In this document: one piece after another, positions 5,518 through 39,010 of the stretch | Layout of the letters: each line of letters begins with the position of its first letter | How positions within the stretch are numbered: the first letter of the stretch is position 1 | IMG/VR virus record: IMGVR_UViG_3300018476_000022 | Coordinates: 1 to 39,010 of that record | Origin: a virus | DNA: 39,010 nucleotides | Direction: 5' to 3' (one strand) | Notes under the pieces: generated by a model | Told to the model about the DNA's origin: nothing | What the model saw: only the letters and a program-made list of their open reading frames with translations | The model's database searches: none | Made by a program: the position numbers and the translations under genes

Positions 5518-6824
5518 ACCACGAAGTCATCTCCTTGCGGCGCCGAGCCCAGGGCACCATCTGTGCCATCCTGCGCCATCTGCAGTTCGGCTTCCTGCGG
5601 AATGTTCGACAACTGCTCCATCGCACCCTCCGGTGCTGGCGGTGTACCGAATGGCTCGTCGGCCCAGGACTCGTACAGTGGCATCCCTTCCCACCGACGA
5701 ATCTCGTTCAGCGTGTAGATGCCGGCCTCGAGCCCGTCGGAGTACATCTTGATGCGAGTGGGAGCGTCCGACCGGAGTACGGTGGACGTGTCGAATCGAG
5801 TGTACTGCGAACCCGGCAACAGGTCCGTGCAGGCTTGTTCGACGCGGCTCATCCACGGCTGAAGGCAGTAGAGCAGCCGCTCACGAACCTTCGACTCCAC
5901 GTTGGCGTAGGTCAGACCAGGACCACCCATTGACGTGGACAAATCCTCGGGAGACAGATTGAACATGAAAGCGATTTCCGCCACGGAGAACTTCCGCGAC
6001 TCCAGGTACTCAGCGTCTGCCATGCTGAGCCCGATCGGCTGCACCTCCACGATCTTCGGCACGACGGCCGGCATGCGGTTGCCAGAGTGATGCCGCATCA
6101 TCCACCGCTGCTGCAGGTACTCGACCTCAGCCTCGGTGATTTCTGACTTGTTGACCGTGATGACCACCGGTGGCACGGCACCAGACGTGTAGGCGTTCGC
6201 GCCGAAGTCCTGCAGCGCCTTCGTGTCCCTGATGTTCTTGCGATGGGCTTCCACCACACCGATGCCGGTGAGCGAGCCTGGCAGCATGAAACCGCGGACG
6301 TGGAACATCGTCTCGTACGTGAACGTCTTGTTCAGCGGCAGGACATCGTAGATCGGCAGGCCCTTGAAGACGTCAACCTCAACGTCGCCTGGGTGGATCG
6401 GAATGAGCTGGCGTGGCCGTCCCGTCGCTTCATCGTAGTCCGCCTTGATGGCGAACATGTCACCGTGCAGGACCATGCTGATGATCGAGCAGAACATCCA
6501 GTCGAAGTACGTGAGGATGGGCCACGGCCGCGTGATGATCTGCGGCTGATCCACCAGTGGCTCGTTGATGGGTTCCTTCGAGAAGCCGGTCAGCGGCATC
6601 TGCGAGATGAGGCCACCGATCATGTTCATGCATCGCCAGGCGGCGGGAATGGCCATGACCAGATCGTCAGCAGATGGATACGACTGCACGCTGACGCCTG
6701 AACCCGTCTGCGGTGACGGAATGAGGAAACCTTGGTTCTGCCAGTCAGGACGGCTTACCGGTGATGGTACAGGTTCACGGGTTCCCCTCGGCATCGAACG
6801 TACCAGGCTGCGTAGGATCGCCAT
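5514..6824 (-). CDS. portal protein, HK97 family
   Basis: The frame could begin at 6830, but the ATG at 6824-6822 is spaced 6 nt from GAGG, giving 436 residues starting MAILRSLVRSMP. Typical phage portal features: PAAWRCMNMIGGLISQMPL near the N-terminus, FGANAYTSGAVPPVVI in the middle, and LEAGIYTLNEIRRWEGMPL near the C-terminus. It forms the dodecameric DNA entry pore and is overlapped at its 5' end by a small membrane gene. Confidence 0.9.
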   Translation of the reverse strand: MAILRSLVRSMPRGTREPVPSPVSRPDWQNQGFLIPSPQTGSGVSVQSYPSADDLVMAIPAAWRCMNMIGGLISQMPLTGFSKEPINEPLVDQPQIITRPWPILTYFDWMFCSIISMVLHGDMFAIKADYDEATGRPRQLIPIHPGDVEVDVFKGLPIYDVLPLNKTFTYETMFHVRGFMLPGSLTGIGVVEAHRKNIRDTKALQDFGANAYTSGAVPPVVITVNKSEITEAEVEYLQQRWMMRHHSGNRMPAVVPKIVEVQPIGLSMADAEYLESRKFSVAEIAFMFNLSPEDLSTSMGGPGLTYANVESKVRERLLYCLQPWMSRVEQACTDLLPGSQYTRFDTSTVLRSDAPTRIKMYSDGLEAGIYTLNEIRRWEGMPLYESWADEPFGTPPAPEGAMEQLSNIPQEAELQMAQDGTDGALGSAPQGDDFVV

Positions 6825-6987
6825 ACTCATCCTCGTCTCGGAACAGGTAGCCGTACTCGAGCAGCAGACCGATGCCCAACAGAATCACGCCGGCAGCCGC
6901 TATCCCTAACCGATAGTCAACCAGACCGAGGGCTATCACGACCAGTACCAGTCCAATGCCCTCAACGGCTGTCGCTAGTACATCCAC
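6775..6987 (-). CDS. small membrane protein between terminase and portal
   Basis: A 70-residue protein with two hydrophobic segments (about residues 8-26 and 28-47) followed by an acidic tail (RDEDEYGDPTQPGTFDAEGNP). It overlaps the terminase stop by 13 bp and the portal start by about 50 bp, so it is read in another frame in a tightly packed stretch. Function unknown; the hydrophobic pattern makes a spurious ORF unlikely but not impossible. Confidence 0.6.
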   Translation of the reverse strand: MDVLATAVEGIGLVLVVIALGLVDYRLGIAAAGVILLGIGLLLEYGYLFRDEDEYGDPTQPGTFDAEGNP

Positions 6988-8378
6988 AGTTGCGGCTCCG
7001 CGTTGATCTTCGTCACCATGTCGTACCCGAAGATGGCTGCTACGGCGGAGTCGATCTTACCGTGAGGGTTCGACCGGTTGGCCGTTACGCGGATGCCCTT
7101 GGGGTCGTACTTGGGTACGCAGTTCGCCAGATGCCGTCTCATCGTCTTGTTGCGGTCATGCCGGATGCGATGTTCCATCACGCCATCGATGAACCGCTTG
7201 CAAGCATCCACCGCTCGCGGCACAGAGTTCGTCGGTACCTCGACCACCGGCAGTCCGTCTTCGAACCACGTCTGCAGAAGCTGCCCCAGGAAGAACGGGT
7301 CAGCGCCGATCTCGCGCACCTTGTAAAGCGAAGCAAGTTCACGAACAAGGTGGTCAATCTCGGCATACGGAACACGCCAGGCATCGTCGCCTACCGGCTT
7401 CTCCCACACCTTGAGCGTGTAGATTTGCGGTACCTCTTCGATGGTGATGCCAACGACGGCCACCGAGTCGTGCTTCCAGGCACCGTCCACGAAAAGGATC
7501 ATCGGCGTAGCCGGCTGCAGCGGATCGACGTCATCGAGCAAGTCCCACATGTGCATGTTCATCCAGCCGGCGGACTGCTGCAGCCAGGCACCGAGGTGCA
7601 GACGAGCGAACTCGACCCGGCTCAGAGCATGCGCCTGACTCTGCAGGAACGAGTCCTGAATCCACCCGTACCGGTAGCCGATGTTGTACTCCTTCCACAC
7701 CTCACGATCGAAGGGGTCGAACTCGTGCGAGACAGACTTCCCGGGCCAGTACGTGTAGAGCGAGTCATCACCACGCTCGGCCCGTTCAACGAGGGCGCCC
7801 AGCGGCGAGTCCATGATGATCCCTGGCGTCGTGATGTAGATCGTCATGGACTCGGGCCGGGCCGCAGCACCAGAGGCTAGCGCTTCCGGAAGGTCAGCAT
7901 TGCGGAAGGCCCAGAACTCGTCACAGACGCTGAGCATCGGGTTGTAGCCGTGCGCCTGGTGAGCATCAGCACCGAGCACCATCAAGTGCGAATGGTTCGG
8001 CGTTTCGATCTTGTTCTTGAATACCCACACCCGCTTACGCAATGGCTTCGAGGCCAGGGCAAAGGCATCGACGTTCTTCTTCAGAATGCCAGCCTGCATG
8101 CGGCTATTGGCGGTAAAGTACACCTCCGTACCCATCTCACGGGTGGTGAGCACGCCCAGGCCGATGCCAGACACCGTGAGCGTCTTGGCCCACTTACGAT
8201 GGACCATGATGAGCGCTTCGCGATGCTTCCAGTAGCCCTCGTCGTTGAGCGCGAACATGCCGTCAAGCACGTCCTTCTGCTCATCCATGAGGCTGATAGC
8301 CTGCCCCGCCAATGGTCCTCGCGGGTGGCGGCAGAACTTTTCGATGAACGAACTGAAGAACGGTCCGTCACTCTGCAC
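6975..8378 (-). CDS. terL: terminase large subunit
   Basis: A 467-residue packaging motor protein with GTG start, overlapping the small subunit by 11 bp. The ATPase part has HRKWAKTLT in the Walker A position (around residue 60), a variant that keeps Lys-Thr but lacks the usual Gly, and Walker B LSVCDEFW with the catalytic Glu. The nuclease part has MILFVDGAWKHDSVAVVG and the late KIDSAVAAIFGYDM, giving the metal-binding acidic residues expected of the RNase H-like domain. It cuts and pumps the genome into proheads. Confidence 0.92.
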   Translation of the reverse strand: MQSDGPFFSSFIEKFCRHPRGPLAGQAISLMDEQKDVLDGMFALNDEGYWKHREALIMVHRKWAKTLTVSGIGLGVLTTREMGTEVYFTANSRMQAGILKKNVDAFALASKPLRKRVWVFKNKIETPNHSHLMVLGADAHQAHGYNPMLSVCDEFWAFRNADLPEALASGAAARPESMTIYITTPGIIMDSPLGALVERAERGDDSLYTYWPGKSVSHEFDPFDREVWKEYNIGYRYGWIQDSFLQSQAHALSRVEFARLHLGAWLQQSAGWMNMHMWDLLDDVDPLQPATPMILFVDGAWKHDSVAVVGITIEEVPQIYTLKVWEKPVGDDAWRVPYAEIDHLVRELASLYKVREIGADPFFLGQLLQTWFEDGLPVVEVPTNSVPRAVDACKRFIDGVMEHRIRHDRNKTMRRHLANCVPKYDPKGIRVTANRSNPHGKIDSAVAAIFGYDMVTKINAEPQLWMY

Positions 8379-8703
8379 GGTGGCGGCTCCGGTGCGGCCG
8401 GTTCGTACGGTTCAGTTCGTGCAAGAAGGCGTCAAACTCGTCCTCGTCATCGCCCTCGAGCAGTGCCACAATCCGCCGGATTTCACGCGTCAAGCCGGCC
8501 AGCAGACGCTCTGCCTGAAGGCAAGCAACGATCAGCGGGTGCGACTGCACGGAGCCACCGGCCATGGCGAACATCAGCCCGTCCTGACTGATCTGCTCGT
8601 GCCACATGTCGACGTCTCGTTCGACGCGACAGTATTGCTCGATGAGCGCATCGCTAGCGGTATCCAGCCCGCGATAGCGCTCGTGAAGTGCGGTCCCGAT
8701 CAT
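8368..8703 (-). CDS. terminase small subunit-like protein
   Basis: A 111-residue protein immediately upstream of the large terminase and overlapping it. Features typical of the P27-like small terminase family: an N-terminal helix (HERYRGLDTASDALIEQYCRVERDVDMW), a Gly-rich turn (FAMAGGSVQSHPL), then a long amphipathic helix (LIVACLQAERLLAGLTREIRRIVALL). It is the first gene of the late operon and would recognise viral DNA for packaging. Confidence 0.75.
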   Translation of the reverse strand: MIGTALHERYRGLDTASDALIEQYCRVERDVDMWHEQISQDGLMFAMAGGSVQSHPLIVACLQAERLLAGLTREIRRIVALLEGDDEDEFDAFLHELNRTNRPHRSRHRAE

Positions 8704-9767: not shown

Positions 9768-9972
9768 CAGCCGCCTCCACGTCGGCGAAGAAGAACACCT
9801 CGACGACCGGCGAAGCAGGATCACGCATACCATCGAGCACTTGCGCGAGATGCTGCTTGCAGGACGTCTTGACGTTCGTGTTCTCCTTCAAGACGTATAC
9901 GGATGGTGCGGGGCAGAGATACGCTTCGCCGTACCGGTGGATACGGCCATCGCATGCTCGCCTGAGGTTCAT
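9754..9972 (-). CDS. small Cys-containing hypothetical protein
   Basis: A 72-residue protein whose ATG overlaps the stop of the HTH gene (ATGA). It contains RACDGRIHRYGEAYLCPAPS and KTSCKQHLAQVLDGM, three cysteines and two histidines spaced like a small zinc-binding fold. It belongs to the operon started by the 10763 HTH gene. Function unknown. Confidence 0.75.
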   Translation of the reverse strand: MNLRRACDGRIHRYGEAYLCPAPSVYVLKENTNVKTSCKQHLAQVLDGMRDPASPVVEVFFFADVEAAVEGL

Positions 9973-10763
9973 GCGGACTCAGGCACCGCCGAGAGAGCCA
10001 CCGGCTCGCGCTCAACCTCATCAGGTGTCTGAAGACGCTGAACGATTCGCATGATCTGCTCCACGAGCTGATTGCAGACGATCAGCGCTTCCTGGCGCTC
10101 ATCGTCGCTGAAGGCTCCTTCGACGGAACGCCCTTCGGCGTCCTGCAGGTTGGTGGCCGCTCGGCGAAGCATCAGCGGTATGGAATCCACCGCTCTGCCG
10201 TTCTCGATGAGCATCCCCATGCGATGCTCGTGCTCGAGTTGCTCTGCGGACTTCTCGACAGGCCGAGGACCACCGCCTGGCTTCCCGTCGTTCCACAGTG
10301 GACTGGCAGGGGCCTTCGGCTCCGTCTCCTTGTACGCCTTCGCCATCTGCCTCATCTCGGCATCCGTTGGCGTGCGCAGGTCTTTGCCCTCGACCTTTTT
10401 CGGGCGGAAGGAACGCCAGTCATGTTCCTCCAGCGAGTCGAGCCACTCTCGGTGTGAGTGGAACCCTTCGGGCACGTAGTCCTCGCCAGGAGCAAGGTCA
10501 GCGGCGACGGGAACGATCCCAGCATCCGCTGCTCGCATCCATTGTGCGAACCACCTGCCGACGGTCGGCTGACTCAACTTCGCCAGCGCGGCGAAGTCAC
10601 GTAGGCTGACCTTGCCGATTTCACCTGGTGTCGGTGCTCGTCCTTCCCGCTTCTCGCAGTTGCGCGCGATCAGGAAGGCGATGGCCCAATCACCTCCGTG
10701 TGCCACTCGGCCGACGATGTGCGCATCCTCGCGCACACTATCGGCGACGATAACTTCCGTCAT
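9969..10763 (-). CDS. HTH DNA-binding protein
   Basis: A 264-residue protein. Residues about 15-90 include WAIAFLIARNCE and a helix-turn-helix, VSLRDFAALAKLSQPTVGRWFAQW (residues 52-75), followed by RAADAGIVP and LAPGEDYVPE, a pattern seen in actinobacterial phage and mobile-element HTH proteins. The long charged C-terminal half (about 150-250) is helical and may oligomerise. It has its own promoter (10807-10829) and GGAGG ribosome site and heads an operon to 9197. It lies about 0.5 kb from the dyad array and is a candidate binder of it (repressor, origin- or centromere-binding); that is inference. Confidence 0.75.
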   Translation of the reverse strand: MTEVIVADSVREDAHIVGRVAHGGDWAIAFLIARNCEKREGRAPTPGEIGKVSLRDFAALAKLSQPTVGRWFAQWMRAADAGIVPVAADLAPGEDYVPEGFHSHREWLDSLEEHDWRSFRPKKVEGKDLRTPTDAEMRQMAKAYKETEPKAPASPLWNDGKPGGGPRPVEKSAEQLEHEHRMGMLIENGRAVDSIPLMLRRAATNLQDAEGRSVEGAFSDDERQEALIVCNQLVEQIMRIVQRLQTPDEVEREPVALSAVPESA

Positions 10764-10845: not shown

Positions 10846-11082
10846 CTACAAAAGTTCTTCACGATAGACGGCGACGATATCGTCGGAGAACTCGTCCTTG
10901 AACACGAGCGAGAGGTTGAAGCGGACCGTTGATGGCATCTTAATCGGTTCATTCGGATCATATTCGTCGACAAGATTCAAACGAATCGGCTTCACCATCT
11001 CGAGTACGTGTACCAGTTCGGGCACGGCCCAAACGCCTACGGTTACGCCTTCATTCGAGATGAGTCTCGCTTGAACAGGCAC
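10846..11082 (-). CDS. 78-residue hypothetical protein, leaderless
   Basis: GTG start at 11082-11080, only 6 nt downstream of the TAGACT -10 hexamer (11094-11089), so the transcript probably begins at or next to the start codon (leaderless, a common actinobacterial mode). The product starts MPVQARLISNEGVTVGVWAV and ends in an acidic beta-rich segment (FKDEFSDDIVAVYREELL). No recognised family. It is divergently placed next to the 11.25-11.63 kb repeat array. Confidence 0.7.
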   Translation of the reverse strand: MPVQARLISNEGVTVGVWAVPELVHVLEMVKPIRLNLVDEYDPNEPIKMPSTVRFNLSLVFKDEFSDDIVAVYREELL

Positions 11083-11251
11083 GTATCTAGTCTAGCACGC
11101 GTTCAAACTGCGCTCAATCTGCGGCCAGAATGCTCGGCGTGCGAATCATCAATGCAGACGTCCCGAATACAGAAGCCCGGGGGTAGCGATTGCGGTATAT
11201 CAGTCCGCAACGCCGGTGGGGTCGTTATGAGCTGGTTACGTTAAAAAACTT
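11083..11251. other. non-coding flank of the repeat array
   Basis: No supported gene. It holds the leaderless promoter at 11089-11110 and then AT-richer sequence running into the array. GTTACGTTAA at 11235-11244 may be a degenerate outlying half-site. Confidence 0.5.
11089..11110 (-). promoter_or_regulatory. extended -10 promoter, leaderless
   Basis: Minus strand TTGAACGCGTGC then TAGACT (11094-11089): TGC plus -10 with upstream AACGCG block. The gap to the GTG start is 6 nt, the same as at 22803/22810. Confidence 0.6.
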
Positions 11252-11634
11252 TGTTAAGCAAACCTAACATTCGATGGAAACATGCCTTAAGTCCGTTTGT
11301 TAACCATGCTTATCATGGTGCGTTAGGTTGACCTTACATACGTATGTTAAGCTGCCTTAACAAGCTGATGTAAGCTGGCTTCATGAGCTGTGTAAGGCAA
11401 GCCTAACAAGCTGTGTTAATGAGCTCTTACAGCTGTTGTTAAGTTGACTTAACAATGAGAGTACAGCTAGCTGTACTTCGAACATTCAAGTTACCTACAG
11501 CTACATCAATGTCCCCTAACAGCTGCTGTAAAGCTGCCTTAACACCCGGCATTAGGGTTACCTTACAACAGCTGTTACTGTTACCTACAGCTACACCAAT
11601 CCTTCCCCACAGCTTTTGTGGGAAAGCCCATTAA
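11252..11634. repeat. 23-bp-pitch array of 18-bp dyads (iteron-like)
   Basis: About 16 interrupted palindromes of form TGTTAAG-N4-CTTAACA. Perfect or near-perfect units lie at 11252-11269, 11298-11315, 11321-11338, 11345-11362, 11391-11408, 11414-11431, 11437-11454, 11460-11477 (variant AGTACAG-CTAG-CTGTACT), 11527-11544, 11550-11567 and 11573-11590; weaker ones at 11275, 11368, 11483, 11504, 11594 and 11617. Centres step by 23 bp almost throughout (a few 21, 22 or 24), with 5-bp linkers often AGCTG. The region is non-coding and AT-rich. Such arrays are bound cooperatively in replication origins, plasmid centromeres or operator clusters; which applies here is unknown. Confidence 0.85.
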
Positions 11635-11660
11635 TGTGCCCTAGGGTAACACGAAGAAAC

Positions 11661-11683: not shown

Positions 11684-11711
11684 TGGACTTTCTGCTAGGA
11701 CACTGTATAAT
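11684..11711 (+). promoter_or_regulatory. sigma70-like promoter for 11750 gene
   Basis: TGGACT (11684-11689), a 16-bp spacer, then a perfect TATAAT (11706-11711). It differs from the extended -10 family used elsewhere, so this gene may be expressed by host polymerase at once. AGGAGG lies 8 nt before the ATG. Confidence 0.65.
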
Positions 11712-11749: not shown

Positions 11750-12049
11750 ATGATCCCTAACTACAACGATGTGACGCTGCCCGAGTTTGGCAGGGTCATC
11801 TACAAGGTCCAACGACAGGATGGGCCGACAGCTGTCGCAAACGACGGCCGTGGTCGCAAGTTTGTCGCAAGTGGGCCCAAGGCCGACGCCGTCGCGAAAA
11901 TCCTCGTCATGGCGATGATCAGTGGCGGCAGCGTCACTCGCAAAGGAATCGTCGCACTGACAGGCGCCTCTGCGTCGCGCGTCAGCGAGGTCGTTTGGGT
12001 CATGTCAACGAACCTCGACCACAACTTCAACGCCTATTTCGTTAGGTAA
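11750..12049 (+). CDS. small HTH protein, paralogue 1
   Basis: A 99-residue protein with a consensus promoter and AGGAGG site. Residues 36-85 (GRKFVASGPKADAVAKILVM, then VTRKGIVALTGASASRVSEV) carry a winged or simple HTH shared with 12864-13274 and 15941-16288. It is one of the few plus-strand genes, lies just downstream of the dyad array, and its stop codon falls inside a further perfect dyad (12040-12057). A regulator or array-binding protein acting on its own promoter region is a reasonable inference. A UUCG-loop terminator follows. Confidence 0.8.
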   Translation: MIPNYNDVTLPEFGRVIYKVQRQDGPTAVANDGRGRKFVASGPKADAVAKILVMAMISGGSVTRKGIVALTGASASRVSEVVWVMSTNLDHNFNAYFVR

Positions 12050-12057
12050 CCCTAACG
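12040..12057. repeat. outlying copy of the 18-bp dyad
   Basis: CGTTAGG-TAAC-CCTAACG, a perfect 7-4-7 dyad of the same class as the 11252-11634 array, overlapping the last codons and stop of the 11750 gene. It flanks that gene on the side opposite the array. Confidence 0.75.
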
Positions 12058-12064
12058 AAATGCG

Positions 12065-12095
12065 AAAGGGCGCCCTTCGGGGCGCCTTTTTTTTT
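12065..12095 (+). terminator. strong intrinsic terminator with TTCG loop
   Basis: GGCGCCC-TTCG-GGGCGCC stem (12069-12086) followed by nine T (12087-12095) and preceded by AAA. Terminates the 11750 gene. Confidence 0.95.
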
Positions 12096-12110
12096 CGCCC
12101 TTTCCCACTT

Positions 12111-12170
12111 TTTCTGTGGAAAAGCTGGGGAATGCCTTTCCCAGCTTTCCTGTGGAAAAGCTGTGGAATG
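12111..12170. repeat. direct repeat with DnaA-box-like sites
   Basis: Two 24-bp copies (12111-12134, 12147-12170; two mismatches), each containing TGTGGAAAA (12115-12123 and 12151-12159), i.e. TTTTCCACA on the minus strand, which fits the relaxed DnaA-box pattern TTWTNCACA. Actinobacterial boxes more often read TTGTCCACA, so binding is uncertain. Confidence 0.5.
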
Positions 12171-12863: not shown

Positions 12864-13274
12864 CTAGGCGGCGGGGGTTGCGGTGTTCTCGACGGTGGCC
12901 GGAACGAGCACAGGCTTCGCCTTGCGCTTCATCGCCTTGGTCTTGTCGAAACCAGGGTAGTTCGCCTCGAGAACCCAGACGACCTCGCTCACTCGGCTGG
13001 CTGAGCAACCGGTGGCGGCGACGATCTCGTCCCTCGTGAAGGGCTCACCGGTCTGCTGCCCGAACACGAGCATCTTCGCGATGGCCTCGGCCTTCGGCCC
13101 GGAAGCGATGAACTTCCTGCCGAGGCCCTCGTTCTGGTCCTTGGTCGGACCGTCCGGACGCTGCACGCGGAACACGTGGGTCGTGTACCCGGCCAGCGTC
13201 ACCTCCTGCCACGTTGTGGGCAGGTCGGTCTTGGCCTCTTCGGCCTCGACCTTCTGCGTTGCCTTGGTCGGCAT
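12864..13274 (-). CDS. small HTH protein, paralogue 2
   Basis: The open frame begins at 13319, but AAAGGA precedes the ATG at 13274-13272, giving 136 residues (MPTKATQKVEAEEAKTDLPT...). Residues 53-101 (GRKFIASGPKAEAIAKMLVF, FTRDEIVAATGCSASRVSEV) are clearly homologous to the 11750 protein; the segment FRVQRPDGPTKDQ also matches its QRQDGPTAV. A basic, Ala/Pro-rich C-terminal tail is extra. Own promoter and terminator make it an independent unit. Probably DNA-binding; role unknown. Confidence 0.8.
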   Translation of the reverse strand: MPTKATQKVEAEEAKTDLPTTWQEVTLAGYTTHVFRVQRPDGPTKDQNEGLGRKFIASGPKAEAIAKMLVFGQQTGEPFTRDEIVAATGCSASRVSEVVWVLEANYPGFDKTKAMKRKAKPVLVPATVENTATPAA

Positions 13275-13328
13275 TTCGGCATTTCCTTTCTCGATGGGGC
13301 TCCCGAGTGGAACCCTCAATCTACGACC

Positions 13329-13352
13329 ATTCTAGCAGGCGTTTTACAACGA
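13329..13352 (-). promoter_or_regulatory. extended -10 promoter for HTH paralogue 2
   Basis: Minus strand GTTGTAAAACGCCTGC then TAGAAT (13334-13329). Just upstream, CTACA-N5-TGTAG (13355-13369) is a small dyad that could be an operator. Confidence 0.65.
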
Positions 13353-13826: not shown

Positions 13827-13864
13827 CGTTTCCTTCCTGCCGCGCTCCCTGCACGGTCAAGATC

Positions 13865-13888
13865 ATTGTACAGGGCGTTTTACAACGA
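13865..13888 (-). promoter_or_regulatory. extended -10-type promoter
   Basis: Minus strand GTTGTAAAACGCCCTG then TACAAT (13870-13865). The upstream 14 bases are identical to those of the promoter at 13329-13352, showing that the conserved block extends well beyond the -10. Confidence 0.6.
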
Positions 13889-15940: not shown

Positions 15941-16288
15941 CTACTCGGTAGTGGCTTCGCCGTTCTCCGACGGCGCTGCAACCTTGGCGCGAGTGGTGCC
16001 CATGCCGAGCACCTTCGCCACCTCAGCCACACGGCTGGGCGAGCAACCAACGACTGCTGCGATCTCCTTCCGAGACATTTCGCCCTTCCTCAGAAGGTCG
16101 GCGATGGCATCTCCCTTCGCGCCACCAGCCGTGAACACCCGGCCCTTGACGGCGAGCGCCTTCGACCCGTTGCGGGTGTCGAACGGTCCGTCCTCACGCG
16201 GCGGAGCCTTCGGCTTCGGCTCCTTCGCTGTCTCTTCAGCAGCCACCGCTTCCATCGCGGCTTCGCTGCCACGTGCCTTTGTCGCCAT
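15941..16288 (-). CDS. small HTH protein, paralogue 3
   Basis: ATG at 16288-16286 follows AAAGGA by 6 nt, so the second Met of the open frame is chosen; 115 residues. After an Ala/Glu/Lys/Pro-rich N-terminus comes GRVFTAGGAKGDAIADLLRK then MSRKEIAAVVGCSPSRVAEV, homologous to paralogues 1 and 2 but lacking their QRxDGPT segment in the same form (PFDTRNGSK instead). Own promoter; sits between the methyltransferase and replication genes. Confidence 0.78.
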   Translation of the reverse strand: MATKARGSEAAMEAVAAEETAKEPKPKAPPREDGPFDTRNGSKALAVKGRVFTAGGAKGDAIADLLRKGEMSRKEIAAVVGCSPSRVAEVAKVLGMGTTRAKVAAPSENGEATTE

Positions 16289-16328
16289 CTGCATTCCTTT
16301 CGTCTAGAGCCACCGTTGTGGCCTTCTC

Positions 16329-16346
16329 ATTCTACTACAAGCGTTA
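16329..16346 (-). promoter_or_regulatory. -10 promoter for HTH paralogue 3
   Basis: Minus strand TAACGCTTGTAG then TAGAAT (16334-16329), same family as other promoters though the TG of the extended -10 is less well placed. Confidence 0.55.
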
Positions 16347-16537: not shown

Positions 16538-17695
16538 TCAAGGTAGTTCGTCTTCGCGCCAGTAGTACGCGGTGGTTCGACCTTCCTTGACGACCCGGAT
16601 GAGTCCTCGTGCAAGCAGATCGCGCAGGTGGATCAACCATTGCTCGCGACTCATCTTTGGTGTCACGCCCTGAAGACGTACGGCTGCCAGTACGGTGGTT
16701 TGATTCGCACCCGGGTCATCACGCAGCACTCGCTGAAATGCCTCCTCAACGGTGGTTTCATGCTGCCGGCGTCGTTCGGCATACGCCTCACCCGGCACGA
16801 GGTGTTGTAACATCACCTCGAACTTATCGGCTCGCGCCATGATGTCTATCGAGGGTTCAGCCGTCACAATGAACCTAAATGGCGTATCGCCTCGACGATA
16901 GTGGCCACGCCGGTCTTTCGCCACCGTCATCGTCACAAAGCCTGATCGCCCCTGCGAGAAAGGCTGGTCGTCTTCATGCCCGATCGACCAGACAACACCG
17001 GTGGCCACCGCGCGCTTCCGCTTCGACCCCGATGAGAACAGCGGGTTATCATTCGCCTTCGTCGCATGGTCGATCAAGCATACAGCCGGGCCGGCGTCAG
17101 CCATCTGCCGCGCGACATTCCGCAACCAGGCGGCTACCTCACCATCTCGATTCTCGTCGATGCCATCTAGCGCGACGGCTTCACCAAGGGAATCCAGCAC
17201 GATCAAGGACGGATTCATGCTTTCAATATGCCGAGAGATAAACGGCATACCGGCAGACATTGGATGCCAGCCGGGCGACCAGACGTGCATGTACTGGTTA
17301 AGCAGGTCCGCATCGAACCTCGCCACCTGCGCCTGGAACCGACGGATGATTTCCGTTGCATCCGTATCCTCGTAGTTGATCCAGAATACGTGCTTCTTCT
17401 TGTACACCTCGAGCCACGCTGCATGTAATGCAATCAGGCTCTTACCGGTCCCGTCTTGACCGTGCAGCATATTGACCGAACCGGGATAGAACAGACCGTC
17501 TGAAATCGTTGGTTCGTTGATCACCACGTTACCTCCAAAGTGAACGTGTTCAGATTGCCAATCGAACTCCATCCAGGGCCGCATGAGTATTGCGCTAAGA
17601 GCGTCCAACATCTCATCCGGCAGAAAGCCGCGCCGCTTACGCAGTTCATTACGCAGCTGGGTAACATGATCGTCTAACTCCACGCTGACCCCCAT
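16538..17695 (-). CDS. RepA-like P-loop helicase/ATPase
   Basis: A 385-residue protein with Walker A GQDGTGKS (79-86), VFWINYED (103-110), Walker B LIVLDS (164-169) and CLIDHATKA (206-214), the layout of RecA-fold AAA_25/RepA-type hexameric helicases of plasmids and phages. The C-terminal 80 residues (AFQRVLRDDPGANQTTVLAAV ... LARGLIRVVKEGRTTAYYW) form a winged helix. It follows the primase-polymerase gene and is most likely the replicative helicase. Confidence 0.82.
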   Translation of the reverse strand: MGVSVELDDHVTQLRNELRKRRGFLPDEMLDALSAILMRPWMEFDWQSEHVHFGGNVVINEPTISDGLFYPGSVNMLHGQDGTGKSLIALHAAWLEVYKKKHVFWINYEDTDATEIIRRFQAQVARFDADLLNQYMHVWSPGWHPMSAGMPFISRHIESMNPSLIVLDSLGEAVALDGIDENRDGEVAAWLRNVARQMADAGPAVCLIDHATKANDNPLFSSGSKRKRAVATGVVWSIGHEDDQPFSQGRSGFVTMTVAKDRRGHYRRGDTPFRFIVTAEPSIDIMARADKFEVMLQHLVPGEAYAERRRQHETTVEEAFQRVLRDDPGANQTTVLAAVRLQGVTPKMSREQWLIHLRDLLARGLIRVVKEGRTTAYYWREDELP

Positions 17696-17737: not shown

Positions 17738-18634
17738 CTACAGCCGACCACGGAGAGCGCTGCGGATCGTCTTGTCCACCTCACGCTCCGACAGTCCGAC
17801 GCTGAGCCCGGCACGTCTAAGTTCATGCTCAGCATACGACGTGCCATGATCGTCACCCTCGAGCACGTTGAAAAGCCAGTATGCCACCCGGTTCAGCGTA
17901 GCATTGCGCTCGCCTTGGTGCGCCTGCTCCATCTGCCGAACCATGTGGTCAATGATTTCACGCCGGCCGCCAGCACCTCGAGTCCATGTCTTGCGATCAC
18001 GCTCGAGAGCGTCAAGCAGTCTCATTACATCCGTCGGGGGCCTTACGAACAACTGGACTAGCCACGAGGGCATGATAGCCGGCTCGCGATCGTCTGCTAC
18101 CTCATATGGTGAACGCTCCCAGCGTGGCCGATCCATGTCCATGTACGGTGGCCCCTCCGCTACGCTGGGTGGCGCGATGACATACGAGCCACCGGCTCTC
18201 ACGTCTATGTTCACGCCCAGCATGCTCGTCGAAGGGCCAATCTCCACGCCCTCGGGCTGCACGAAGTACAGGTGCAGGCCGTTGCCGGCTGTCACCACGG
18301 TGTAAGTATCGATCCAGGCACCGTCGTTGAACATGTCGAGCATCTCTTGCCACGAGTTAAGGCCAGGCTTCTCAGCGGTTGTCCGATCACGGTTCAAAAT
18401 CAGACCGCCGAGGTCTAGGTCGATAACGACCAGATCGCTTTGCCCGGTCCATATCCCGATGTTGAAGTCCGGGGTCTGGCCCCACCATCGCCTAATCGTA
18501 GGTACGTCAACGGTGGCAGCATAGACGCCCGAACGCGTGGCGGGCTCCTTGCGCCCTGCCCTGCACGGGAACACGTACCACCCTCGTTGAGCGTACGACT
18601 GGGCTGCGAGGCTCAATCGGCTAGGATTGTTCAC
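17738..18634 (-). CDS. primase-polymerase (PriPol, AEP) domain protein
   Basis: A 298-residue protein, GTG start with GGGAGG 5 nt upstream. The N-terminal 160 residues match the bifunctional DNA primase/polymerase domain: WYVFPCRAGRKEP, AATVDVPTIRRWWGQTPDFNIG, LVVIDLDLGG (Asp72, Asp74), TAGNGLHLYF (His121) and NIDVRAGGSYVIAPPS (Asp144). The C-terminal part (about 205-298) is helical. No family A, B or C polymerase is encoded, so this enzyme with the neighbouring helicase probably founds genome replication, helped by host polymerase. Confidence 0.87.
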   Translation of the reverse strand: MNNPSRLSLAAQSYAQRGWYVFPCRAGRKEPATRSGVYAATVDVPTIRRWWGQTPDFNIGIWTGQSDLVVIDLDLGGLILNRDRTTAEKPGLNSWQEMLDMFNDGAWIDTYTVVTAGNGLHLYFVQPEGVEIGPSTSMLGVNIDVRAGGSYVIAPPSVAEGPPYMDMDRPRWERSPYEVADDREPAIMPSWLVQLFVRPPTDVMRLLDALERDRKTWTRGAGGRREIIDHMVRQMEQAHQGERNATLNRVAYWLFNVLEGDDHGTSYAEHELRRAGLSVGLSEREVDKTIRSALRGRL

Positions 18635-20061: not shown

Positions 20062-20079
20062 GTCTCTCCTTCCTCCGCC

Positions 20080-20103
20080 ATTCTACCACAGGCGGTGTAG
20101 GGC
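20080..20103 (-). promoter_or_regulatory. extended -10 promoter
   Basis: Minus strand CTACACCGCCTGTGG then TAGAAT (20085-20080): one of the best matches to the promoter family. Confidence 0.7.
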
Positions 20104-24333: not shown

Positions 24334-24424
24334 GCTTGTATCCTTTCATGCTTGTATGCTTGTTGCCAGCGAAGCCGCCCAGGGTTTGTGTATGCTGCAC
24401 ATCGCCCTGAGCGGCTCCGCATTC

Positions 24425-24450
24425 ATTCTACTACAGACGACTCCGTCTGT
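24425..24450 (-). promoter_or_regulatory. promoter with overlapping dyad operator
   Basis: Minus strand GTCGTCTGTAG then TAGAAT (24430-24425). Overlapping it is a perfect 7-4-7 dyad, ACAGACG-ACTC-CGTCTGT (24433-24450), the same geometry as the 11.3 kb array but different half-sites. Likely regulates the SSB-like gene. Confidence 0.6.
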
Positions 24451-37141: not shown

Positions 37142-39010
37142 CGGGTACTCCGGTAGCCACCGTTGCGGCGAGTATGACGACGTGTCGTCTTTTCGATGGT
37201 GGACGGATTTACGCCTGGCGGGAAGTTGTAGGTGATGGTCGTATTACCGGCTGCCCTTGGCGCCATGCGCACGGTAGGTCCAGCGTACGTTCCACCAGCC
37301 AGAGCGATGGCGCTCTGCACCTGCGCCTTGATGTTCCCCTCGTTGATGTCAACGCTAGCGTACACGGTGGCATGTCGATCACGCGCCAGAGCATCCATGC
37401 GAGCGGCCGCCTTAGCGTATTCGCCTTCAGCGATGTACGCAGCAATCTCCGACTTCACGTCCGGCGGAATGTCGTCAAGCAGATCGTTGTACAGCTGAAT
37501 CTTCAACTTCGCTTCGGCATCACCGGCGATCTTCAAGTACGTCTCGACTTGCTCAGGCGTCAAACCGAGCGTGTACAGATAGCCCTGGATTTCCTCGTCC
37601 GTCGCACCGGCAGCATGACCCGTCATATAGAACGACTCACGGAGTGCATTGACATGACCGACGACTTCATCCGTGCTCTTGCCTGAATCGATGAGCGTCT
37701 GAATGTAGTCCTGGTACGAGCCGCCGAGATTCAGCAACGCCTCGGTCGATGTCATCTGCTCAGCAGTGATCTGACCCGTGATGATCTTCTGCGCATCAAG
37801 GACGGGCTTGCCTTCCTTCATGGCTTCGACCCACTCGAGCTGTGCCTCGCGAATACCCAGCGCCGACTTGGCGTAATCATCCAGCGGCTGCGCTTCCATA
37901 GCATCGCCGAATGCCGTGGCCCGCTCGGTCATGCCCTGCTGCGCAACAGACAGATCATCAAGCGTATCGATCAAACTGTCGAACGCCTTCTCTGCTTCCT
38001 TGACGGCTTCGCCCTCGGCCTCGACGTGCTCAGCGCCCAGGTCGGTGGCTTCCGTCAGAACCTTCTGCGAGCCGGTGGCTAGATCAATGCGCTGCTGATA
38101 ATCAGCCACCATCTTGGTCGTGTCGTCGAAGCCTTCCGCTGTCGGCCCCAACTGCGCAAGCATATCCTTCATTGCATCGACAAGCGCTTGCGCCTGCTCG
38201 GGCGACGTCTTTAGCAGTTTGTCGAAGGCACGGTTGACGTCCTCAATATCGTTCGTGCCTTCAGTACCGACGATGTGGAGTTCGTCGCCGAAGTCCTCCC
38301 ACAAATGCGAGAGCCGGCCCGTATCATCTTCGGCTTCCGACATCTTGGCGAACGCCTGTACGATATCCTCGGGCCCCTTCTCCGACGCGATGACAAACGA
38401 CTGCAGGGCCCGCTCAGCCGTGCCGGCAGCATCCGTGATCTCGTTGAAGACGCCAATGCCAATCTCCACGCCGGCGAAACCGGCAATGGCGGCGGTCGAC
38501 AACTTGGCTGCCATGCCGAACTTGTTGAGGCCACCGGCTGCGTTGGTGAAGTTCGATCTGATCTTGCCGACAGCACCGGCAAGCATTGACAGAGCACCGA
38601 CTACACCGAGAGCAATCGTGCTGAAGCCGGCGAACTGACCTACAGCGTCCTGGATCGCGGGGTCGAGGTTGTTGAATGCGCTGACAGCACTCTCGGCACC
38701 GCCGACCAGCGTCTTGAACATCGGCAGCAGAGCCCGGCCGAGGTTCGCTTGCAGGTTCTCGAACGATGCACTCAAGATGCGCTGCTGGTTCGCCAACTGT
38801 CCCGACGTACGCGCGAAGTCTCCCTGGGCGAATGACAGCTGATCGTACAGTTCGGCGTGAGCAGCCACGATCTTCTGTTGCTGCGTCAACTGGCCGGTAC
38901 CGTCGTAGATGCCTAGCGCCAAGGCGCGTGCCTTCAGCACCACATCATTGAGGACGACGCCGTACTTCCGGATCGGCTCGTACTCATTTCGCATAGCAGC
39001 CGCGATGGCA
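37138..39010 (-). CDS. tape measure protein, main part (N-terminus at 1-599)
   Basis: Continues the frame begun at 599. From MRNEYEPIRKYGVVLNDVVL (repeated in the 1-123 overlap) it has a coiled-coil stretch, a hydrophobic Gly/Ala zone (FAGFSTIALGVVGALSMLAG and FGMAAKLSTAAIAGFAGVEI) typical of tape measures that insert in the host membrane, then acidic helices (EAEGEAVKEAEKAFDSLIDT), and a Gly/Arg-rich C-terminal end (RRHTRRNGGYRSTR). Bases 38888-39010 duplicate 1-123. Confidence 0.9.
   Translation of the reverse strand, partial: AIAAAMRNEYEPIRKYGVVLNDVVLKARALALGIYDGTGQLTQQQKIVAAHAELYDQLSFAQGDFARTSGQLANQQRILSASFENLQANLGRALLPMFKTLVGGAESAVSAFNNLDPAIQDAVGQFAGFSTIALGVVGALSMLAGAVGKIRSNFTNAAGGLNKFGMAAKLSTAAIAGFAGVEIGIGVFNEITDAAGTAERALQSFVIASEKGPEDIVQAFAKMSEAEDDTGRLSHLWEDFGDELHIVGTEGTNDIEDVNRAFDKLLKTSPEQAQALVDAMKDMLAQLGPTAEGFDDTTKMVADYQQRIDLATGSQKVLTEATDLGAEHVEAEGEAVKEAEKAFDSLIDTLDDLSVAQQGMTERATAFGDAMEAQPLDDYAKSALGIREAQLEWVEAMKEGKPVLDAQKIITGQITAEQMTSTEALLNLGGSYQDYIQTLIDSGKSTDEVVGHVNALRESFYMTGHAAGATDEEIQGYLYTLGLTPEQVETYLKIAGDAEAKLKIQLYNDLLDDIPPDVKSEIAAYIAEGEYAKAAARMDALARDRHATVYASVDINEGNIKAQVQSAIALAGGTYAGPTVRMAPRAAGNTTITYNFPPGVNPSTIEKTTRRHTRRNGGYRSTR
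38888..39010. repeat. terminal overlap, right copy
   Basis: Exact 123-bp copy of the window start; unique genome length is 38,887 bp. Packaging type (headful or cohesive ends) cannot be told from this. Confidence 0.95.

Follow-up and report, generated by a model that had tools for sequence, protein, structure and literature searches.

Regularly spaced palindromes in a viral genome raise the question of which protein, phage or host, they are there to bind. The stretch analyzed here, called the window, is the whole 39,010 bp of IMGVR_UViG_3300018476_000022 (G000 in our set), a complete virus record of 60% G+C content (GC). From 11252 to about 11612 it contains an 18-bp dyad, TGTTARG-N4-CYTAACA, in a 23-bp register of 16 slots, for which an earlier note made from the letters alone had offered a replication origin, a partition site or an operator cluster. 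The answer toward which we lean, tentatively, is that the array consists of operators of the host iron-repressor type, their most likely use being titration of that repressor.

Structure of the dyad array

The dyads lie where they had been reported, and the statistics of the array are far outside chance. Autocorrelation peaks at lags of 23 (z 5.7) and 46 (z 5.6), compared with a maximum z of 3.8 among 500 Markov shuffles, and the longest chain of in-phase palindromes has seven members, compared with no more than four in 500 shuffles. GC is 0.43 across 11251-11640 and 0.60 in the whole genome, in agreement with the AT-rich zone that had been described. The previous count of about 16 copies holds for the register slots but is generous for the dyads themselves, as only about 10 of the 16 are recognizable as such and the remainder are half-sites. 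By strength there are seven strong, three weaker and about six decayed copies, and an extra strong copy is present at 12040-12057, where a perfect dyad across the stop of a helix-turn-helix (HTH) gene had been correctly noted. Pairing is 7/7 at 11345, 11437 and 11460, 6/7 at 11252, 11391 and 11527, and 5/7 at 11298 and 11321. The 23-bp step, which had been called regular, is so overall, with two slips: 24 bp at 11321-11345, and 90 instead of 92 bp across 11437-11527. The boxes, assigned to neither strand, are given below with their scores on a matrix from host FTR1 promoters (shuffle maximum 14.0 bits), described in the next section.

11252..11612: dyad array (iron boxes), 23-bp register
11252..11269: strong box TGTTAAG-CAAA-CCTAACA, 23.3 bits
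11298..11315: weaker box TGTTAACCATGCTTATCA, 12.5 bits
11321..11338: strong box CGTTAGGTTGACCTTACA, 18.5 bits
11345..11362: strong box, perfect dyad TGTTAAG-CTGC-CTTAACA, 20.2 bits
11391..11408: strong box TGTAAGGCAAGCCTAACA, 22.6 bits
11414..11431: weaker box TGTTAATGAGCTCTTACA, 10.3 bits
11437..11454: strong box, perfect dyad TGTTAAG-TTGA-CTTAACA, 19.8 bits
11460..11477: in-register variant palindrome AGTACAG-CTAG-CTGTACT, no fit to the iron-box matrix
11504..11521: weaker box CATCAATGTCCCCTAACA, 9.4 bits
11527..11544: strong box TGTAAAGCTGCCTTAACA, 16.9 bits
11550..11567: strong box CATTAGGGTTACCTTACA, 18.5 bits
12040..12057: isolated strong box, perfect dyad CGTTAGG-TAAC-CCTAACG, 21.0 bits, spanning the stop of the HTH gene, with no recognizable promoter there

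Resemblance to actinobacterial iron boxes

Chromosomal counterparts of the dyad were collected from a host sample of one phylum and one order. Exact copies of TGTTARGYNNRCYTAACA occur six times in 397 genomes of the actinobacterial phylum, and their neighbors are two SBP_bac_6 binding proteins, read as the Fe3+-transport type, FTR1, FeoA/FeoB, a DtxR-family repressor gene and one unclear gene. Allowing one mismatch, we obtained 31 sites from 59 genomes of a single order, compared with 4 for the reversed control pattern. Genes next to these 31 include Fe3+-binding proteins, FTR1, FeoA and DtxR-family genes, together with a siderophore monooxygenase, siderophore-interacting proteins and a recurring unnamed family (names are from Pfam for seven of the host neighbor proteins and from sequence reading for the others). 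A scan for the tandem dyad through 257 Gb of genomes from 84,980 species gave 12 stretches, including three Solirubrobacter genomes and one metagenome-assembled genome in which the dyad pair adjoins an FTR1-like gene, so named by sequence reading. Of the other stretches, which appear unrelated, the flavobacterial ones were discarded as AT-rich matches. In Solirubrobacter the sites make up a small regulon, and its members include HtaA-domain genes, which carry a variant. The 257-Gb scan turned up pairs only and no array, so that the arrays look viral.

Because these host sites came from a phage-derived pattern, we carried out a motif test without it. Twenty-three FTR1 loci were fetched by Pfam family. 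A simple motif could place the start of 13 of the genes, and upstream of these we counted all 5-mer dyads with a gap of 0-10. TTAGG-N4-CCTAA was the top dyad, present in 10 of the 13 upstream regions, with the next best dyad in 6. A host matrix was built from the best-aligned site of 10 of the 13 promoters (three poor ones were omitted, and the alignment step used the phage consensus). Its nine best matches on the 39-kb window are eight array copies and 12040, with 12.5-23.3 bits, and nothing rose above the shuffle maximum on the phages Jasmine and DS1, which have no arrays. TTAAG variants of the core dyad are frequent in the window phage.

The classical 19-bp iron box is TTAGGTTAGSCTAACCTAA, and C. 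diphtheriae sites for DtxR are given in PMC524172. This DtxR/IdeR 19-mer contains TTAGG-N4-CCTAA (as TTAGG-TTAG-CCTAA), as if it were one dimer site, and the likeness extends to the adjoining gene classes and to the DtxR genes that themselves carry a box. The window dyads differ from it in being single 18-bp units, and in the phages these are multiplied into arrays of 23-bp pitch, whereas chromosomal boxes are mostly single. Since the dyad precedes host iron genes, an FTR1-derived matrix finds the array and the classical 19-mer contains the same core, we call the dyads DtxR-family-type iron boxes. On these sequence comparisons it appears very probable that they are iron boxes of the actinobacterial DtxR/IdeR family, and the host of the window virus is probably an actinobacterium.

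We also observed that an unnamed protein family of about 190-300 amino acids ('...TALVHTLPGG...HPSADFNPC') adjoins host iron boxes at L265, L274, L278, L289, L291 and L294; it is perhaps an unrecognized iron-related family.

The same boxes and pitch in other phages

IMG/VR was searched with a pattern of two adjacent dyads 4-6 bp apart, which presets the pitch to 22-24 bp, so that arrays of other pitch could escape. Nineteen contigs or stretches matched. Those with 5-bp spacing (pitch 23) all bear arrays (L117, L215, L217, L219/L228, L222, L225, L227), whereas those with 4-bp spacing showed no comparable iron-type array (L224, a 33% GC contig, has a group of pitch 22). A complementary pattern added L318, L319, L320, L331, L332, L334, L339 and others. 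Altogether, boxes and pitch as in the window are found in about 15 other phage contigs, mostly incomplete, and none of the 12 contigs matching a reversed control pattern holds an array. Mapping of whole records gave up to 34 sites, in the 128-kb phage G005.

When the strong boxes of array phages were located with the host matrix, blind to spacing, 55 of 61 short intervals equaled 23n ± 1 (50 of 56 in another count), compared with a chance expectation of about 13%. In most contigs one interval had been fixed at 22-24 bp by the search pattern, and those intervals are therefore not independent evidence; independent support for the pitch comes from the window, most G005 intervals and the multiples 46 and 69.

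The array phages fall into several unrelated groups and have no common protein near the array. Actinobacterial hosts are indicated by WhiB-like proteins (G004, G005 and G007) and, in MW202795, by a WhiB annotation. The dyad together with its 23-bp pitch is a sequence signature that can help to assign uncultured phages to actinobacterial hosts, whatever its function.

Relatives of the window phage were examined for an array at the same locus, the lack of which the earlier note had named among the conditions that would refute its proposal; that condition did not hold. L331 is such a relative (TerL E 8e-224; portal and protease also match), and at the same locus, upstream of its packaging genes and ahead of a gene on the plus strand, it has eight strong boxes over 368 bp (6494-6861). 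Despite the shared array, blastn between L331 and the window detected no similarity in this non-coding stretch. Among the 80 loci of a TerL alignment, mostly 30-33% identical, L011, a close relative (~87% nucleotide identity), stops about 140 bp short of the array, and the remaining ones showed no comparable array. BLAST of an array against named phages returned chance matches only. The named relatives of G007, Jasmine (Arthrobacter) and DS1 (Cellulosimicrobium), have no array; MW202795, from spring water, has three boxes.

This distribution bears on whether the array could be an operator or stoperator cluster of a phage repressor, such as one of three HTH paralogues or a 264-amino acid protein encoded nearby, with its iron-box likeness due to convergence. 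A divergent HTH gene with its own promoter does adjoin the array. Dyads of the 7-4-7 form TTAAG-N4-CTTAA also act as CI/Cro-type operators, as at 1345-1431 of contig L122, a proteobacterial temperate phage in which they are spaced 22-24 bp, and a looser dyad pattern returned mostly unrelated palindromes, such operators included. The 7-4-7 TTAAG shape alone is therefore not diagnostic. P22/434-type CI-Cro operators share the 7-4-7 dyad and the TTAAG/CTTAA half-sites, but they number three or four, lie between cI and cro, overlap promoters and belong to a different host group. For a phage repressor, moreover, about 15 contigs belonging to several unrelated phage groups would have had to converge independently on 14 fixed bases and a 23-bp pitch, with a fit of 23 bits to the host iron box, and apart from 12040 and weak matches no boxes occur elsewhere in the window genome, for example at its other HTH genes. 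We regard such convergence as improbable. An operator cluster was the right kind of element to propose, but a host iron repressor of the DtxR family is a likelier binder than the flanking HTH proteins that had been put forward.

Possible titration of a host repressor or control of phage promoters

The array predicts a host binder. No DtxR-family gene (PF01325) was found in any of eight phage records tested, most of them fragments, with the complete window among them. Because chromosomal boxes precede iron genes and the repressor gene itself, the host repressor is the natural candidate. Fe2+-loaded repressor dimers would occupy the 18-bp dyads side by side at the 23-bp pitch. Each phage genome would bring in about eight strong boxes, where sampled host genomes usually have few: eight strong sites in the window compare with 0-2 per host genome (one mismatch, sampled order) and with 6-10 in Solirubrobacter (looser pattern), although the host of the window phage may differ. 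Replicating phage DNA would then pull repressor off the host chromosome, and the freed promoters would lead to derepressed iron uptake, which would be the natural counterpart of the Fur titration assay (FURTA). We infer cooperation between neighboring dimers, and titration instead of phage promoter control as the result.

Multicopy operators are known to derepress a regulon in FURTA (PMC3145626), as does multicopy operator DNA in the form of synthetic decoys (PMC7826281). Our proposal resembles these in that multicopy operators would draw repressor from the chromosome, but those are laboratory constructs; in the open-licence literature searched we found no description of natural phage iron-box arrays. 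If the dyads are iron boxes, titration is on balance a probable use for them. That unrelated actinophages have repeatedly built fixed-pitch "iron sponges" which titrate or sequester the host repressor, reprogramming iron uptake by DNA alone, is a broader proposal that we make with more reserve. Phages are known to alter host metabolism by means of genes; here, if the proposal is true, operator DNA alone would do so, and the target would be iron, a frequent limiting nutrient of plankton.

Alternatively, the same host-repressor boxes could gate transcription of the phage itself, a bound array silencing the early/late hub under iron-replete conditions and releasing it when iron is poor. In the window, L331, L262, G003, G007 and G008 the arrays do lie at the early/late divergent gap or at the head of the packaging operon, the strict pitch implies cooperative assembly, and corynephage tox is a precedent for a phage gene with a DtxR site (PMC524172). 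Corynephage DNA likewise bears an operator for the host iron repressor, but tox has one operator on a cargo gene, whereas the array offers as many as 16 slots, lies in an intergenic hub and has no cargo gene. The boxes also miss recognizable promoters (by about 70-120 bp in the window and about 100 bp in L262), although those of the window do stand at the early/late junction. Box 12040 is at the 3' end of a gene, which we count for titration, the G005 boxes are spread across DNA poor in open reading frames (ORFs), and 16 slots far exceed the needs of an operator. Overall, gating seems unlikely to us; once iron-box identity is granted it is somewhat less doubtful, with titration still favored. 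If true, it would link phage expression to host iron status in many unrelated phages.

Several points weigh against the titration of a host iron repressor. Many copies in the window array are degenerate. The classical 19-bp DtxR box has a half for a second dimer that is missing from the sites, except for a poor match at 12042, the only one within 4 mismatches, and the full two-dimer form is not found; the iron-box claim is confined to the one-dimer 18-bp form, which the sampled hosts use as well. The host sites were partly gathered with a phage-derived pattern, and the FTR1 test, which is free of that, has an n of 13. Binding by the host DtxR-family repressor is what we infer from other Actinobacteria, and the capacity for titration would depend on repressor copy number. 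In most phages with visible context the array is located at the early/late junction or heads the packaging operon, a position that would suit a hub of transcription control. Finally, a 23-bp pitch with shared phase would be needless for simple titration and suggests an ordered nucleoprotein structure.

Genes around the array, replication and partition

An exact direct repeat of 123 bp is present at the ends of the window record (1-123 = 38888-39010), indicating a circular or circularly permuted genome of about 38.9 kb; the record is labeled linear despite this repeat. Homology identifies a siphophage-like gene set (TerL, portal, protease, capsid, tape measure, tail fiber-like proteins and endolysin) as well as thymidylate (dTMP)-pathway genes, an exonuclease, a PriPol and a DnaB/RepA-like helicase. 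All genes named by homology are on the minus strand, and the 99-amino acid HTH gene, with the array filling the gap to its left, is the sole plus-strand gene identified. The main features are as follows.

6975-8378, minus strand: TerL, packaging gene
8368-8703, minus strand: TerS, packaging gene
9969..10763, minus strand: 264-amino acid protein, proposed as HTH in the earlier note; no family match
10846..11082, minus strand: leftward ORF nearest to the array on its left side, upstream of the packaging genes
11684..11711, plus strand: sigma-70-like promoter of the HTH gene, TGGACT-N16-TATAAT, downstream of the boxes without overlap
11750..12049, plus strand: 99-amino acid HTH protein, paralogues at 12864-13319 and 15941-16294 (both minus strand)
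12069..12095, plus strand: probable terminator 3' of the HTH gene, GGCGCCCTTCGGGGCGCC then T9, from sequence reading; not in the terminator-scan list for that strand
12115..12159, minus strand: two DnaA-box-like 9-mers (12115, 12151), the only ones of the window, inside a 36-bp tandem repeat
16538-17695, minus strand: helicase
17738-18634, minus strand: PriPol

The two small HTH paralogues are 51% and 37% identical to the 11750-12049 protein, and a homology search found no relatives of this family in IMG/VR or phage genomes. The AlphaFold model of the 99-amino acid protein is of low confidence (predicted local distance difference test score 63) and had no PDB fold match at E<=0.001.

A replication origin would make the dyads iterons in the style of lambda O; a phage initiator, for example the 99-amino acid HTH protein, would bind them, with PriPol and helicase acting beside it. 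The lambda origin has iterons that are 18-bp dyads at a pitch of about 23 bp. Lambda carries its four copies within the initiator gene, where the phage protein O binds them, whereas the present dyads are host-type operators common to unrelated phages. The array is AT-rich and intergenic, PriPol and helicase are encoded, and the two DnaA-like boxes are about 0.5 kb from it, with a pair at the array edge in L331. Across the other phages, however, the arrays show no association with DnaA boxes except for one box in G005, the sequence and pitch recur without any shared array-adjacent protein, the dyad also serves as an operator of iron genes in chromosomes, and no relative of the HTH family was found in IMG/VR. 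We consider an origin improbable, and as a general function of the array it was not borne out; given the DnaA-like boxes of L331 and the window, one may nevertheless lie in the same gap. No switch in GC skew occurs at the array, and an 8-mer search for relatives of the helicase gave no matches.

Around the DnaA-like boxes, the 36-bp tandem repeat with inverted DnaA-like arms occupies 12099-12134 and 12135-12170, and a diverged third copy, at 11601-11636, lies at the right edge of the array. The matching place in L331 reads TTATGCACA...TGTGGATAA.

The partition site proposed earlier, a centromere of a phage-plasmid, would suit a regular palindrome array in a gene-free zone of a circular genome. 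The window contains no ParB_N (PF02195) or ParA-type AAA_31 (PF13614) gene, these being the Par types searched, and G005 scatters many separate box clusters, including box pairs, over about 14 kb of ORF-poor DNA. We consider this function very improbable.

Possible operators of other kinds in G005 and promoter-like elements

The ORF-poor stretch of G005 (L238, 40,000-60,000 of IMGVR_UViG_3300030376_007544) holds more than 20 iron boxes along with six TCCCG...CGGGA dyads, three CRP-like TGTGA-N6-TCACA sites and 9 of the 10 GAAC-N4-GTTC sites of that phage, four of them spaced 15-17 bp at 44687-44735. The last motif is one that we take to be an actinobacterial LexA-type site. This stretch possibly carries operators or decoys for several host regulators and, if repressor titration is the true function, G005 may extend the principle to LexA and other host regulators. 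Elsewhere in G005 (68620-69895) an iron box is close to a WhiB-like gene and, by sequence reading, a gene for a HesB/IscA-like iron-sulfur protein. Fur-like GAGAA-N3-TTCTC palindromes adjoin arrays in three phages (L262:35416-35428, G007:36921-36933 and G005:44643-44655). Rfam gave no match in the window, L238 or L230. In the window, leftward gene starts have in common a -10-like TAGAAT/TACAAT element, often preceded by TG (minus strand, 13328-13350, 13864-13885, 16328-16345, 20079-20100 and 24424-24445), and two of the starts with this element also share GTTGTAAAACGCC.
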